From Alphaproteobacteria bacterium (GTDB lineage: Bacteria; Pseudomonadota; Alphaproteobacteria; UBA6615): a stretch of 64,000 nucleotides of DNA. The stretch spans positions 62,001 to 126,000 of the forward strand of contig JAJFIX010000009.1 in the NCBI GenBank assembly GCA_021774575.1, in the 5' to 3' direction. Position numbers and translations under genes: made by a program. A model generated the notes under the pieces. That model was not told where the DNA came from. It did not search any database and saw nothing but the letters and a program-made list of their open reading frames with translations. This document shows positions 17,866-61,729 of this stretch, in pieces. Position 1 is the stretch's first letter. Each line of letters begins with the position of its first letter.

Positions 17866-19323
17866 CTATTTCGCCATCCGCGCAATGGCGGCTGTTGTGG
17901 AGTGACCGGGTTCCAGTTCTGCCAGCACGACGGCGCCGCCATAGCTTTCGACAAACGTTGCTCCGACGACGGTTTCAACTGAATAGTCGGCGCCTTTTAT
18001 TAAGGTGTCGGGACGAATGCGCCGGATCAGCGCTTCCGGCGTTTCCTCGCCAAACAGGGTGACGGCATCGACATCGGCCAATGATGCGATCACCCGGGCC
18101 CGGGCGTTTTCGTCCTGAACCGGTCGGCCGGGCCCCTTTAATTTACGCACCGAGGCGTCGGTGTTGAGGGCGACGATTAACCGATCACAGGTCGCCGCCG
18201 CCTGTTCCATCAGCGAGACATGGCCGGGATGAACGACATCAAAACAGCCATTGGTAAATCCGATGCGCAAACCCTGGCGGCGCCACTGGGCGACCTGCCC
18301 ATCTAGGGCCGAATCGGCCTTGACCTTTGTCGATTGGGTACGCGCCGCGACAAGGTTCATTTGTTCGCGCAGTTCATGAATATCGGTTGTCGCGGTGCCG
18401 ACCTTGCCTACGACGACGCCGGCGGCGCTATTGGCAAGTTCTATCGCGCGGGCCAGTGGAAGGCCGCTGGCTAAAGATGCTGCAGTAACTGCAACCACCG
18501 TGTCGCCAGCGCCCGAGACATCGAAGACTTCACGGGCCATCGTGGCGAGGGTTATTGGTTCGCTATCGCCCGGCACCAAGGTCATGCCGTCGGGGCCGCG
18601 GGTCGCGAGCACCGCGCCGATGCCACATCCTTCAATAAGGGCGCGGGCGGCGGCGACAATATCGGCGGTGCCGCCGGTTTTCATGTCCGACGCGTCCTGC
18701 AATTCCTTACGATTTGGCGTAAGCAATGTCGCCCCTTCGTAGCGGCTATAGTCGCGCCCAACCGGGTCGACGAGGACCGGCACGCCCTTTGCCTTTGCGT
18801 GGGCAATGATGTGGGCCAGAACAGATGATGTGAGCACGCCCTTGCCGTAATCTGAGAGAATGACCGCGTCGCACGCATCGATGGCTGCTGTCGCCGCCCG
18901 GCAGACTTTATCCTGTAGTGCAGGCGATAAGGGTGAGCTGTCTTCGGCGTCGGTGCGGAGCAATTGCTGACCACCGGCGACATATCGGCATTTAACCGAG
19001 GTCGGGCGCGCCGTGTCGGTGATCAAATCGATTTGTGCACCGGCCTCACGTTCGGCAAGGCGGGCAATTTCCTCGCCGGGTAAATCTTTGCCGATGACCG
19101 CAACAATATGTGCCCGAGCACCGAGTGAGGCGATATTACGCAATACATTGCCGACACCGCCGAGCATCACCGTCTCGCCGCCGATGCGCAGCACCGGAAT
19201 CGGTGCTTCAGGCGAAATACGTTCGACGGAACCGTGAATGAACCGGTCAAGCATGATGTCGCCAATGCAGGCAACCCGCGCGTGGGTTAATGCGTCGAAA
19301 TGGGTGTCGATGAATTCATCCAT
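17866..19323 (-). CDS. hldE: Bifunctional D-glycero-beta-D-manno-heptose-7-phosphate kinase/heptose-1-phosphate adenylyltransferase
   Basis: PfkB kinase half (VFDVSGAGDTVVA) plus nucleotidyltransferase half (GFTNGCFDVVHPGHVSLMEQA). Confidence 0.95.
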   Translation of the reverse strand: MDEFIDTHFDALTHARVACIGDIMLDRFIHGSVERISPEAPIPVLRIGGETVMLGGVGNVLRNIASLGARAHIVAVIGKDLPGEEIARLAEREAGAQIDLITDTARPTSVKCRYVAGGQQLLRTDAEDSSPLSPALQDKVCRAATAAIDACDAVILSDYGKGVLTSSVLAHIIAHAKAKGVPVLVDPVGRDYSRYEGATLLTPNRKELQDASDMKTGGTADIVAAARALIEGCGIGAVLATRGPDGMTLVPGDSEPITLATMAREVFDVSGAGDTVVAVTAASLASGLPLARAIELANSAAGVVVGKVGTATTDIHELREQMNLVAARTQSTKVKADSALDGQVAQWRRQGLRIGFTNGCFDVVHPGHVSLMEQAAATCDRLIVALNTDASVRKLKGPGRPVQDENARARVIASLADVDAVTLFGEETPEALIRRIRPDTLIKGADYSVETVVGATFVESYGGAVVLAELEPGHSTTAAIARMAK

Positions 19324-27896: not shown

Positions 27897-28415
27897 CTAA
27901 TCGCTATCGCCGGGGTCGGCGAAGCGACCGCTATCGGTGTCGATCGGGTCGGACTGGGTTAACTCGCTTTGTTTCACCGGGTCGCCGAAATCGGCGTCGG
28001 ACCCACCGCCGACCGGGTCGCGTTCGGGGCCGGTATCTTCGTCGGTCCCGCCGCCGGTTAAGTCTTGGGTTACGCCGCTATCTAGGTCGGATCCTTCGCC
28101 GGCCGGGTCGCCTTCGTCCTGGTCGGACGGATCGGCAAAGACCGTTTCGTCGGTATCGGTGCCCGACCCGATCTCATCGGATTTTGGACCTTTGTCGATA
28201 TCGCTGCCGCTGCCCGCCGGGTCGCCAGACAATTCGATGTCGGCATCAGCAGCAACTGCAGCCCCTTTGGGGTGCATGAGGCCCGTGGTTCCGACGATGG
28301 CGCCGCCAAGGATTGAGAGCGTCGACCGGCGCCCAACCTTGAACGTAGTCTTAATGTCGGCAAGCGACAGGGAACGCTTTTTGCGTTGATTAGCAGATGT
28401 TTTTTCCTGGCTCAT
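27897..28415 (-). CDS. Tat-type secreted Asp/Gly-rich repeat protein of unknown function
   Basis: GRRSTLSILGGAIVGTTGLMHPKGAAVAA leader; repeated D-x-x-G-x-G-[ST]-D-x-D units; AGGAA upstream of the ATG at 28415. Confidence 0.7.
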   Translation of the reverse strand: MSQEKTSANQRKKRSLSLADIKTTFKVGRRSTLSILGGAIVGTTGLMHPKGAAVAADADIELSGDPAGSGSDIDKGPKSDEIGSGTDTDETVFADPSDQDEGDPAGEGSDLDSGVTQDLTGGGTDEDTGPERDPVGGGSDADFGDPVKQSELTQSDPIDTDSGRFADPGDSD

Positions 28416-28529
28416 AATTAATTCCTGGACTTGGTGAAGCAGGGGGCATCTGGCGGTGATCATAGACTTAAAAGCGACTCATCACATCACCTAGATTAAA
28501 AATGCGTCCAATCCTAAAGGAGAATTTCC

Positions 28530-29903: not shown

Positions 29904-31955
29904 ATGAAAATTCGGGCGCTGTCCACAGTGGCAGTCATGCTACTTATGGCAGGTTGTATTCCGCCCGCGACTTCGACTCTTGAACAAAGAGGCGGAGTGC
30001 AGCAGGGGGGATTTCCGGCAAATGGGAGCTTTGCCAATAGTGGCGGCTTCCCGGCAGCGGGGAATTTCGGTACGACCGATCAATTTGGCAATCAAACTGG
30101 TATTACCGCAGCCAATGTAGGCGGGATAAATAATACTGGATTTGACAATGCAGGTTTTGGTACCGGCTTTAATACGTCAGGTGTCGGCGGATTTGCCAAC
30201 ACCCAAGGTGTAGGTCAGTTCGGTGCGACGAATGGTGGCTTTGGCACTGCCGCGCCTGGGTTCGACCCATCAGGGTTTAACGCCAGTGGGTTTAATAATG
30301 GGACCAATACCGGTTTTACGCAGGACTTCAGTGCGGCGGGCGGATTTGGGTCTAATAATTTCAATTCCCAGGGCTTTAATCCAAGCAATTTTAACGCTAC
30401 AGGTTTTGGCCAGAGCATCCCCGATCCGTACTATGCGAATCAGGGTGATTATGCGCCGACCTATCAGGGCCAAAATAATTTTGATCCGAATTACCAGGCT
30501 CAGACTAATTTTGACCCGAATTATCAGGGCCAGAATAATTTTGATCCGAACTATCAGGGCCAGAATAATTTTGATCCAAATTACCAGGCTCAGAATAATT
30601 TTGACCCGAATTATCAGGGCCAGAATAATTTTGACCCGACCGGGTTTGATCGTTGCGTAAATTGTTTTGCCGACAACCACCTTGATACACGTGGACTTGA
30701 CCTTGGGCTTGGCCTCGACTTAGGCCTCGGTCTCGGATTGGGTGAATTGGATCTCGGCCATACAGCGGTTCGCGCGTCGAGCGGCGACACCCAATCGGTG
30801 GCGGTGGTTCAGCAATTGCTGGCGGCAAACGGCCATTTCACCGGTCCTATTGATGGTCAGCTTGGTCCATTAACCACCCAGGCAATCCGGTCTTATCAAC
30901 GGCAAAACTTTCTGCCAATTGATGGCCATATATCGGTTCGTTTGCTGACGGCACTGGCGGCGCAGGCTGCTGACCGTATTCCACCAAACGGGTCGAATGC
31001 CCAGGAATCAGAAGTTGCCCGAGTGGCTCGTGTGCAACGACTGCTTGCCCAGATTGGTCTTGAGCCTGGTCCCGCAGACGGACGGTTCGGTCCCTATACG
31101 GTTCAGGCGATTAAGGACTTCCAGATCCGCAATGGTGTGGCGCCGACTGGCGAGATCACCGATGACTTGATTGCGGCCCTCTCCAGCATGGCGCCGAATG
31201 TGGCAACGAATGCTGCACGAGGCGCGGATGCGGCTGCATTCCCGCAAGGTCAAGACGGGCGTCGACGCGGCATGACCGATGACGTTGCGACGCAACTGGA
31301 TCGGCCGGGGCTGCGGAGTGATCTCAATATTGCGCTGGCTGATTTGTCGAGTGCGGTTTCGAGCGGAACGATGAACCTGCGGTTCGTTGCCAATGGTCGG
31401 ATCGCATCACTTGGGCGTGATAGCGAAGCGGTTCGTTTGAACGGGCTTTTGGTCGGCGAAGAAACTGTCGCCAGCCTCTCGCAATTCAGTTTCGATTCGC
31501 CGATGGTGAACGAAACCGGATCCGAAGTATTTGGGCAATATGACAATATCGCGCTGAGTTGGCGTGGTTTCCTGGCCGCCCGGAATTCCGGCCAGTACGA
31601 CTTTGTCCTGCAAACCGATTTCGCCGACGCCGCGAACGGTAATCACTGTGACATCGCCATGATGTTCCGTGAGGACCGGGAGCTAGTGCCGGTGATTAAG
31701 CGCCGGGTCACAACAATAAGAGCAACCGACCAGGCGAATCTGTTCCTCGAACAAGGGCTGCATGAAGTGAGCATATGGGTCCAGTGTAAGGAGGTCGTTG
31801 GCGTTCGCAGGTTCCGCACGAACCTGTTGATGCGAGGTCCAGGGTTTCAACTGGCCCAACCGATCCCCAATGAGCTGATGTTCGCTGCCACGGATGTTGA
31901 GGAAATTGCGAGCCTTCTGGACGGCAATCAGCCTAGCGTGAGGGAAAGCAACTAA
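29904..31955 (+). CDS. Large lipoprotein: FG/N-rich low-complexity region, 10-aa tandem repeats, GL-rich segment, two peptidoglycan-binding (PG_binding_1) modules and a PA14-like C-terminal domain
   Basis: Lipobox MKIRALSTVAVMLLMAGC with upstream GGGGAGGGGA; VVQQLLAANGHFTGPIDGQLGPLTTQAIRSYQRQN and VQRLLAQIGLEPGPADGRFGPYTVQAIKDFQIRNG; C-terminal LSWRGFLAARNSGQYDFVLQTDF. Confidence 0.8.
   Translation: MKIRALSTVAVMLLMAGCIPPATSTLEQRGGVQQGGFPANGSFANSGGFPAAGNFGTTDQFGNQTGITAANVGGINNTGFDNAGFGTGFNTSGVGGFANTQGVGQFGATNGGFGTAAPGFDPSGFNASGFNNGTNTGFTQDFSAAGGFGSNNFNSQGFNPSNFNATGFGQSIPDPYYANQGDYAPTYQGQNNFDPNYQAQTNFDPNYQGQNNFDPNYQGQNNFDPNYQAQNNFDPNYQGQNNFDPTGFDRCVNCFADNHLDTRGLDLGLGLDLGLGLGLGELDLGHTAVRASSGDTQSVAVVQQLLAANGHFTGPIDGQLGPLTTQAIRSYQRQNFLPIDGHISVRLLTALAAQAADRIPPNGSNAQESEVARVARVQRLLAQIGLEPGPADGRFGPYTVQAIKDFQIRNGVAPTGEITDDLIAALSSMAPNVATNAARGADAAAFPQGQDGRRRGMTDDVATQLDRPGLRSDLNIALADLSSAVSSGTMNLRFVANGRIASLGRDSEAVRLNGLLVGEETVASLSQFSFDSPMVNETGSEVFGQYDNIALSWRGFLAARNSGQYDFVLQTDFADAANGNHCDIAMMFREDRELVPVIKRRVTTIRATDQANLFLEQGLHEVSIWVQCKEVVGVRRFRTNLLMRGPGFQLAQPIPNELMFAATDVEEIASLLDGNQPSVRESN
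30474..30638 (+). repeat. 30-bp in-frame tandem repeats (five units plus a half unit) encoding [NT]NFDPNYQ[GA]Q
   Basis: Near-identical AATAATTTTGAYCCGAAYTAYCAGGSYCAG units, read directly. Confidence 0.95.
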
Positions 31956-32111: not shown

Positions 32112-33239
32112 CTAAAATAATGAGAGTTGCGCTTTGTCGGCGGTACTGTCGCAGCGGCGGGGCGGCGTAAATGCACTTGTGTTCAACTGAGGTGGCACCG
32201 TCGCCAGACCGAGGCGTTTGCAGGCGACTTTAAATCGGTGCCTCAATAAACCGGCCTCGGTTCCCGTGCCGGACATACGTTCATTAAATTTTGCACTATT
32301 GAGTTTGCCTCCCCGCAATCCCTGAAGTCGACGGAGCACGCGGGCGGATTTGTTTGTTTGAACCCCGTCGAGCCATTCGCAGAAGAGATCGGTCACTTCT
32401 CGTGGCAAGCGTAGCAAAATGTAGCCTGCGGCGACTGCGCCCGCCTGGGCCGCTTGCTCCAGGATTGCTTCCATCTCGTGATCGTTGAGACCGGGTATGA
32501 TCGGCGCGACCAAGACGACGGTTGGCACACCGGCGCCGGCGGCCTTGCTGATCGCATCAATTCTTCGGCCCGGAGAGGACGCGCGCGGTTCCATGGATCG
32601 GGCAAGTTTCCGATCGAGGGTGGTTACCGAAAGAGCAACGCCGGCAAGTTTACGTGCCGCCATTGATCCCAAAATATCGAGATCGCGTACAAGTCCGGCA
32701 TTTTTTGTCGTGATTGTAACCGGGTGATGGTGGGCGTCGAGAACGGATAGGATGGAGCGGGTAATTTTTAATTTGCTCTCAACCGGCTGATAGGGGTCGG
32801 TATTGGTGCCCAGGGCAATGGGTTGAGGCCGGTATCCCGGTTTAGCTAATTCCCAGGTCAGATGGCGGGCGGCGTCCGGCTTGACGTAAATTTCGGTTTC
32901 GAAATCGAGGCCGGCGGAATGACCGAGATAGGTATGGGTTGGCCGGGCATAACAATAGACGCATCCATGTTCGCAGCCACGATAGGGGTTTATTGATCGG
33001 TCAAATTTAACATCGGGGGACTTATTATAGGTGATGATGCTCCTGCTTTTATCGTTATGCAGATGGGTGGCTAGCGGTGGCGGGCCACCATCAATGTCTG
33101 CCGATCCGCACTCGCCAATATTATTCAAACCACCGCCATTCCATCCATCATCGAACGCGTGCCGAGTGAAAGCTTCATAACGACCGCTCCGGTTGCTTAA
33201 CACGCCACGGCCACGGGCCCCTTTTTGTTGTTCGACCAT
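32112..33239 (-). CDS. PA0069 family radical SAM protein (SplB-like)
   Basis: NPYRGCEHGCVYCYARPTHTYLGHSAGLDFETEIYVK (CxxxCxxC) and the KGARGRGVLSNRSGRYE N-terminus. Confidence 0.92.
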   Translation of the reverse strand: MVEQQKGARGRGVLSNRSGRYEAFTRHAFDDGWNGGGLNNIGECGSADIDGGPPPLATHLHNDKSRSIITYNKSPDVKFDRSINPYRGCEHGCVYCYARPTHTYLGHSAGLDFETEIYVKPDAARHLTWELAKPGYRPQPIALGTNTDPYQPVESKLKITRSILSVLDAHHHPVTITTKNAGLVRDLDILGSMAARKLAGVALSVTTLDRKLARSMEPRASSPGRRIDAISKAAGAGVPTVVLVAPIIPGLNDHEMEAILEQAAQAGAVAAGYILLRLPREVTDLFCEWLDGVQTNKSARVLRRLQGLRGGKLNSAKFNERMSGTGTEAGLLRHRFKVACKRLGLATVPPQLNTSAFTPPRRCDSTADKAQLSLF

Positions 33240-33263
33240 AATTTAAAGGATACTATCTAAATA

Positions 33264-33278
33264 GAACAAAGCAAGAAC
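33264..33278 (-). promoter_or_regulatory. Candidate alphaproteobacterial LexA (SOS) box
   Basis: GAAC-AAAGCAA-GAAC (minus strand GTTCTTGCTTTGTTC), exact GTTC-N7-GTTC, 25 bp upstream of the radical SAM ATG. Confidence 0.65.
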
Positions 33279-33373: not shown

Positions 33374-34723
33374 ATGGGTGATCACACGGACGACGTCGAA
33401 TTATTGTCAAATTTGATTGCCGTCGCACGCCGCAATGGAGCCGATGCCGCAGACGCCGTGTTGGCCAGAGGTATTTCAATATCCCAGACCGTCCGGCTTG
33501 GCGAAACCGAGTTGATGGAACGCGAAGAGGGGCAGGACCTTGGACTGCGCGTGCTGGTTGGCAAAAAACAAGCGATCGTTTCCTCGACCGACCTTGGCGC
33601 CGACGCACTCGCTGAAATTGTCGAACGGGCCGTTGCCATGGCGCGGGCAGTTCCCGAGGACCCTTATTGCGGTTTGGCGGATCCGGCAGATTTGTGCACC
33701 CAATTTGGCGATGTAGATGCCGCCGATCCGCTCGAACCCGAACAGGCCGAACTCGAACGCCAAGCTCAAATTTGTGAAGCGGCGGCGCTGGCGGTTCAGG
33801 GTGTAACAAATTCAGAGGGCGCTTCGGCAAACTGGGACGCCAGTCGAATGAGCTTGGTGGCGTCAAACGGGTTCTCCGGCGAACGTCGATCGACCCGGCG
33901 CGGCATTGGAGTGTCGGTTATCGCCGGTGAAGGCACTGAGATGGAAACCGATTACGACTTCACTTATGCGGTCTATGGTGAGGATCTGGAGGATGCAGCG
34001 GCGGTCGGAACCCGCGCCGGGGACCGCACGGTAAAGCGCCTTAATCCTCGCAAAGTTGAAACGACGCAAGTTCCCGTAATTTTCGATAATCGCGTCTCGG
34101 GCGGTCTGCTTGGCCATCTCGCCGGCGCGATATCGGGGTCGGCGATTGCGCGCGGTACGAGTTTTTTGAAAGATAAGATGGGTGAAAAACTCTTTGCCGA
34201 CGGCATCAGGATCGTCGACGACCCGCATCGCCTAAGAGGCTTGCGCTCACGGCCCTTTGACGGCGAAGGCATTGCACCTCAGCGGCGCAACATTATCGAA
34301 GATGGCGTGCTGACCGGTTGGTTTCTCGATCTGTCGACCGCTCGCCAATTGGGGTTAGAGACGACGGGCAATGCGGTGCGGGGCACCTCCGCCCCTCCGT
34401 CGCCGAGCCCGGCAAATTTTTATATGGAGGCAGGCAATATCTCACCCGAGGCCATGATCGGCGAAATTGACGATGGGTTTTATGTGACCAGCTTGATGGG
34501 CCATGGGGTCAATCCGGTCACCGGAGATTATAGCCGGGGTGCATCGGGTTTTTGGATCGAAAACGGCGTCCTCGCTTATCCTGTGTCAGAACTTACGGTC
34601 GCCGGTAATTTGACCGACATGTACCGCAAATTGACCCCGGCCGATGACCTGACGTTCCGTTATGGCACCGATGCGCCGACCCTGCGGGTCGATGGCTTAA
34701 CCGTTGCCGGGGCCGGCGGTTAA
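33374..34723 (+). CDS. pmbA: TldD/PmbA family metallopeptidase-like protein
   Basis: REEGQDLGLRVLVGKKQAIVSSTDL, GVSVIAGEGTEMETDYDF, LTGWFLDLSTARQLGLETTGNAVRG, LMGHGVNPVTGDYSRGASGFWIENG. Confidence 0.93.
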   Translation: MGDHTDDVELLSNLIAVARRNGADAADAVLARGISISQTVRLGETELMEREEGQDLGLRVLVGKKQAIVSSTDLGADALAEIVERAVAMARAVPEDPYCGLADPADLCTQFGDVDAADPLEPEQAELERQAQICEAAALAVQGVTNSEGASANWDASRMSLVASNGFSGERRSTRRGIGVSVIAGEGTEMETDYDFTYAVYGEDLEDAAAVGTRAGDRTVKRLNPRKVETTQVPVIFDNRVSGGLLGHLAGAISGSAIARGTSFLKDKMGEKLFADGIRIVDDPHRLRGLRSRPFDGEGIAPQRRNIIEDGVLTGWFLDLSTARQLGLETTGNAVRGTSAPPSPSPANFYMEAGNISPEAMIGEIDDGFYVTSLMGHGVNPVTGDYSRGASGFWIENGVLAYPVSELTVAGNLTDMYRKLTPADDLTFRYGTDAPTLRVDGLTVAGAGG

Positions 34724-61566: not shown

Positions 61567-61729
61567 CCTGGTTCCCGAATTGTTCCTGGGTCATAGCGTC
61601 CATGATATGGGTCCAATATTGCGACCAATATCGGGTCATGTCTGGATTCTGCGCGTATTCCGAAAATTGTTCTTCCCACAAATCCAAATAGGAGCGGGCA
61701 AGTTCCGCGAGATCGGGTTTCTGAGCCAT
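61313..61729 (-). CDS. Small coiled-coil protein with basic KRA-rich tail (phasin/PhaE-like?), overlapping the phaC-like ORF in another frame
   Basis: MAQKPDLAELARSYLDLWEEQFSEYAQNPDMTRYWSQYWTHIMDAM...DPRLDELERVIDRVTARVALLEKTVGEQ...KARRPAKNAKRPKSA. Confidence 0.65.
   Translation of the reverse strand: MAQKPDLAELARSYLDLWEEQFSEYAQNPDMTRYWSQYWTHIMDAMTQEQFGNQDGRAANAKPNDTARPGTAAPAPDPRLDELERVIDRVTARVALLEKTVGEQKSGNRAKPRASGKNKATGTKARRPAKNAKRPKSA

Follow-up and report, generated by a model that had tools for sequence, protein, structure and literature searches.

A conserved LexA box upstream of a PA0069-family radical SAM gene in Alphaproteobacteria

Short direct repeats in front of a gene can indicate control by LexA, and a motif of only eight fixed bases can also arise anywhere. 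In the stretch of alphaproteobacterial DNA analyzed here (64,000 nucleotides, in the following called the window), such a repeat precedes a gene for a radical SAM protein of the PA0069 family. This locus raises the question whether the gene belongs to the SOS regulon and, if so, what its product does after DNA damage. An earlier note on this DNA, made from the sequence alone, had placed the gene in the SOS regulon and had suggested a role of the enzyme in reversal of DNA lesions. Here, the repeat and its surroundings were compared with those of orthologous genes within and outside the class, and the enzyme was compared with solved structures and with the members of its own family. The features of the locus are as follows.

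32112–33239, minus strand: PA0069-family radical SAM gene, 375 aa (NF033668; Pfam Radical_SAM; CxxxCxxC motif; AlphaFold2 model)
33247–33252, minus strand: predicted −10 element TATCCT, with a spacing of 16 bp to the −35 element (TANNNT peak at 16–17 bp in orthologues)
33264–33278, minus strand: LexA box GTTC-TTGCTTT-GTTC, exact match (shared by 190 of 212 upstream regions of orthologues)
33269–33274, minus strand: predicted −35 element TTGCTT, within the LexA box (TTG at spacer positions 1–3 in 134/189 orthologous boxes)
33374–34723, plus strand: divergent PmbA/TldD-family gene (Pfam PmbA_TldD domains), outside the conserved unit

The box and its predicted promoter

The product of the radical SAM gene scored 461.7 bits against the family model NF033668 (rSAM_PA0069; cut-off 360) and thus is a member of this family. 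Against NF038135, the Rv2578c family, it reached 208.6 bits and stayed below the cut-off of 430, as a related sequence. By a pattern search of the window, GTTCTTGCTTTGTTC, that is GTTC-TTGCTTT-GTTC, was found as an exact match to the alphaproteobacterial LexA motif GTTC-N7-GTTC at 33264–33278 on the minus strand, just as described before for the region ahead of the radical SAM start codon. The promoter-proximal place of the box also stands, with a small correction of the distance: the gap to the ATG (33239) is 24 nt instead of 25 bp. On the other side, the ATG of the divergent pmbA gene (33374) lies 95 bp from the box, in agreement with the approximate value given earlier.

The frequency of the pattern by itself is not significant. 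It was seen 3 times in the window vs 1.94 ± 1.42 times in shuffled sequences, and 83 times in the whole genome vs 108 times for a reversed control pattern. Since there is no enrichment in the window or in the genome, pattern counts were set aside as evidence. The two other matches in the window were rejected as LexA sites. The match at 19229–19243 lies inside a 485-aa open reading frame and was taken as chance. The match at 61571–61585 on the plus strand (GTTCCCGAATTGTTC) has a spacer that differs from those of the conserved LexA boxes and is probably chance as well; it is intergenic, with a PhaC-like gene on one side and a gene for a PHA-accumulation regulator on the other. Elsewhere in the window, 29904–31952 (plus strand) encodes a 683-aa protein with two peptidoglycan-binding domains, preceded by a repeat array (30456–30639) of about six copies of a 30-base unit encoding NYQGQNNFDP-like peptides. 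Also, 27897–28463 (minus strand) encodes a D/G/S-rich protein of at most 188 aa with repeated DPAGEGSD/GGGSDADFGD-like motifs and no Pfam match.

For the analysis of promoter anatomy, 189 distinct orthologous boxes were used. Counted from the spacer TTG, TANNNT followed at an offset of 16 bp in 40 and of 17 bp in 52 of them, with 0–10 cases at every other offset. Judged from this alignment of boxes, the conserved pattern is a sigma-70-like −35/−10 pair with the predicted −35 element inside the LexA box. A scan with a plain sigma-70 consensus did not call a promoter at 33247–33274, and the assignment therefore rests on the comparison of orthologues. With only 7 nt between the predicted −10 element and the ATG, a short transcript that is leaderless or nearly so is expected. 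Because the predicted −35 element is part of the box, bound LexA would cover the promoter. In the mechanism that we propose, LexA would bind the direct repeat at 33264–33278, overlap the −35 element and block RNA polymerase; upon DNA damage, cleavage of LexA activated by RecA would free the promoter and thereby induce the gene.

Conservation of the box within and outside the class

As a check set beforehand, orthologous promoters were scanned for GTTC-N7-GTTC. The box was found in the same orientation in 190 of 212 upstream regions, while other spacings occurred in 1.6% on average and the box in reverse orientation in 9 of the 212. The orthologues came from the family and its relatives, from an even sample of the class (80 further stretches) and from named genomes. 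By source, the counts were 27/27, 26/27, 70/79 (named genomes, including a few gammaproteobacteria) and 67/79 (remaining loci of the class sample). The additional loci taken from the class included top-ranked as well as lower-ranked entries by score, and for this reason the conservation is not due to a choice of close relatives. A first orthologue set had given the box in 122/132 upstream regions, 1–4 matches for spacings of 3–6 and 8–12, and 0/132 matches in coding stretches of the same orthologues. Many loci without a perfect box hold a form with one mismatch, often at the usual place (e.g. GTACTTGCTTTGTTC); no near match was present in the upstream regions of the class loci L207, L232, L249, and L251. 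By its position and its conservation in these comparisons, the box is far beyond chance. In a survey of 289 genomes of the class, the radical SAM gene was present in 168 and lexA in 254; this co-occurrence alone is no evidence, because reduced genomes lose both genes.

A forward and a reverse box, 40–110 bp apart, were observed upstream of the radical SAM gene in the loci L118, L131, L139, L144, L154, and L155. Loci with such a pair belong mostly to Acetobacteraceae/Rhodospirillales.

Outside the class, 44 orthologues were analyzed, 4 from named loci and 40 from a phylum sample whose genomes may include betaproteobacteria, placed by GTDB in the gamma class. None of the 44 has the alphaproteobacterial box, and 28 have a perfect CTGT-N8-ACAG, the LexA box of gamma- and betaproteobacteria, for which other spacings gave 0–2 matches. 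Among the named gammaproteobacterial loci, CTGT-N8-ACAG is present in L157 (Thiogranum) and L162 (Granulosicoccaceae). Thus, the gene bears the type of box read by the LexA of its host, and without selection for LexA control this is difficult to explain.

The regulators required are encoded in the same genome, i.e. a LexA protein with LexA_DNA_bind and Peptidase_S24 domains and a RecA protein. The recA gene has GTTCTTTTTTTGTTC upstream, between recA and its neighbor, and lexA has GTTCTAAAGATGTTC upstream. Also in this genome, a DsbA-like gene and a mazG gene flank two GTTC-N7-GTTC boxes in opposite orientation (L303:1515–1603), a possible further SOS promoter.

Two other explanations of the box have to be weighed against LexA control of the radical SAM gene. 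The box could have arisen by chance in an AT-rich promoter on which LexA has no effect, and its eight-base pattern is indeed common in the genome and below the reversed control there. The occurrence in nearly all orthologues over a low background, the promoter geometry fixed in these orthologues and the change of the motif from class to class speak against this; as a general account, a chance match is already refuted by conservation, and for the present site it is extremely improbable. More serious is the possibility that pmbA is the target of the box, alone or together with the radical SAM gene, since the intergenic region is common to both and pmbA starts close to the box. However, among the loci searched, whose flanks differ in length, the present genome is the sole one with pmbA as neighbor of the radical SAM gene, whereas the box remains linked to the latter; its orientation and the predicted −10 element also point towards the radical SAM gene. 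Because the pmbA neighbor is not conserved, the box is assigned to the radical SAM gene. Control of pmbA in place of, or together with, the radical SAM gene is accordingly very unlikely, although a side effect of the box on pmbA is conceivable. We therefore retain LexA control of the radical SAM gene: box conservation, promoter anatomy and the class-linked change of the motif all support the SOS membership proposed before. On comparative grounds, this membership appears close to certain, and the enzyme would very probably be switched on upon DNA damage. Also with the best explanation of the locus taken as a whole, we have high confidence that the gene at 32112–33239 belongs to the SOS regulon under its LexA box.

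Fold and putative function of the enzyme

The AlphaFold2 model of the radical SAM protein has a mean pLDDT of 87.6. Using Foldseek, the five best matches among solved structures were spore photoproduct lyases (TM 0.55–0.57, 16% identity, best E value 6.7e-9), and the predicted fold is thus closest to that of spore photoproduct lyase. The relation to SplB named in the earlier note accordingly holds at the level of the fold. In sequence searches of the PDB, spore photoproduct lyase was not among the matches listed. In spore photoproduct lyase, Cys140 is the hydrogen donor, and Tyr98 follows the third cluster cysteine; titles of PDB entries of lyase structures name mutants of C140 and Y98. In 252 members of the PA0069 family, C89, C93, and C96 of the CxxxCxxC cluster motif are invariant and are the only conserved cysteines. 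No conserved cysteine was found outside the cluster in these members, and therefore the family has no conserved counterpart of Cys140. The residue before C96 is tyrosine in all 252 members, and the residue after it is phenylalanine in 185 and tyrosine in 67. Compared with spore photoproduct lyase (PDB 4fhc and mutants), the PA0069 family hence shares the overall fold and the CxxxCxxC site, but differs by low identity, by the lack of a conserved Cys140 counterpart and by mostly phenylalanine at the position of Tyr98. The label "spore photoproduct lyase" is not supported, given the lack of this counterpart, and going by the family alignment either this label or that of a photolyase is probably wrong for the enzyme.

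If the enzyme were a genuine spore photoproduct lyase, with 5-thyminyl-5,6-dihydrothymine as the lesion repaired, this would agree with the best structural matches and with the invariant tyrosine before the third cluster cysteine. Such an activity is nevertheless improbable in view of the three conserved cysteines, the predominance of phenylalanine after the third one and the PDB sequence searches, which listed no lyase. Less easily dismissed, albeit still rather unlikely, is a simply co-induced enzyme outside DNA repair, with RNA, a protein or a small molecule as the target of modification. Radical SAM enzymes are diverse, which leaves room for such a function; yet the nearest fold is that of a DNA-repair enzyme, and the tie to LexA outlived the change of the motif between classes. 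We slightly favor a radical SAM enzyme acting on damaged nucleic acid, with a lyase-like fold and another substrate or hydrogen donor; of all parts of the proposed explanation, this one is the weakest. For this enzyme, a DNA lesion would be a likely substrate, and the lesion reversal suggested earlier may fairly be inferred from fold and regulation.

Relation to known LexA-regulated radical SAM genes

PA0069 is, as we assume, a member of the LexA regulon of Pseudomonas aeruginosa; PA0069 or Rv2578c together with LexA was not found in the open literature. For alpha- and betaproteobacteria, a study of 2012 predicted that LexA controls splB; it covered species with several chromosomes, named the product a photolyase and saw no such control in the gammaproteobacteria studied (PMC3323433). 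That case and the present one share a COG1533/SplB-type radical SAM gene and a class-specific LexA box. They differ in the gammaproteobacteria, where L157 and L162 carry CTGT-N8-ACAG here, and the assignment of the splB genes of that study to the PA0069 family is putative. In 2021, SplB (COG1533) was called SOS-regulated in several species (PMC8565304). In Streptomyces venezuelae, ChIP-seq identified the radical SAM gene vnz_31145 as a target of LexA, and mitomycin C raised its expression 20-fold (PMC9380542); it resembles the present gene as a radical SAM gene under LexA control, which is experimental there, and its membership in the Rv2578c family is putative. In Caulobacter, ccna_01391 and ccna_02355 have the box GTTCttgttatGTTC in common (PMC12700426), and either of them may be the radical SAM gene of that species.

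LexA regulation is thus already known in kind, and the gene at 32112–33239 is an added member. What is added here is the class-wide count of the box, its overlap with the predicted promoter, the change of the motif in named gammaproteobacterial loci and the absence of the lyase cysteine. About 90% of the examined alphaproteobacterial loci carry the LexA box, and the regulatory evidence ties the enzyme to DNA damage. Tentatively, and with less than even confidence, the PA0069 family may be a core and ancient SOS enzyme of Proteobacteria that would reverse a lesion other than the spore photoproduct by radical chemistry without a cysteine donor.
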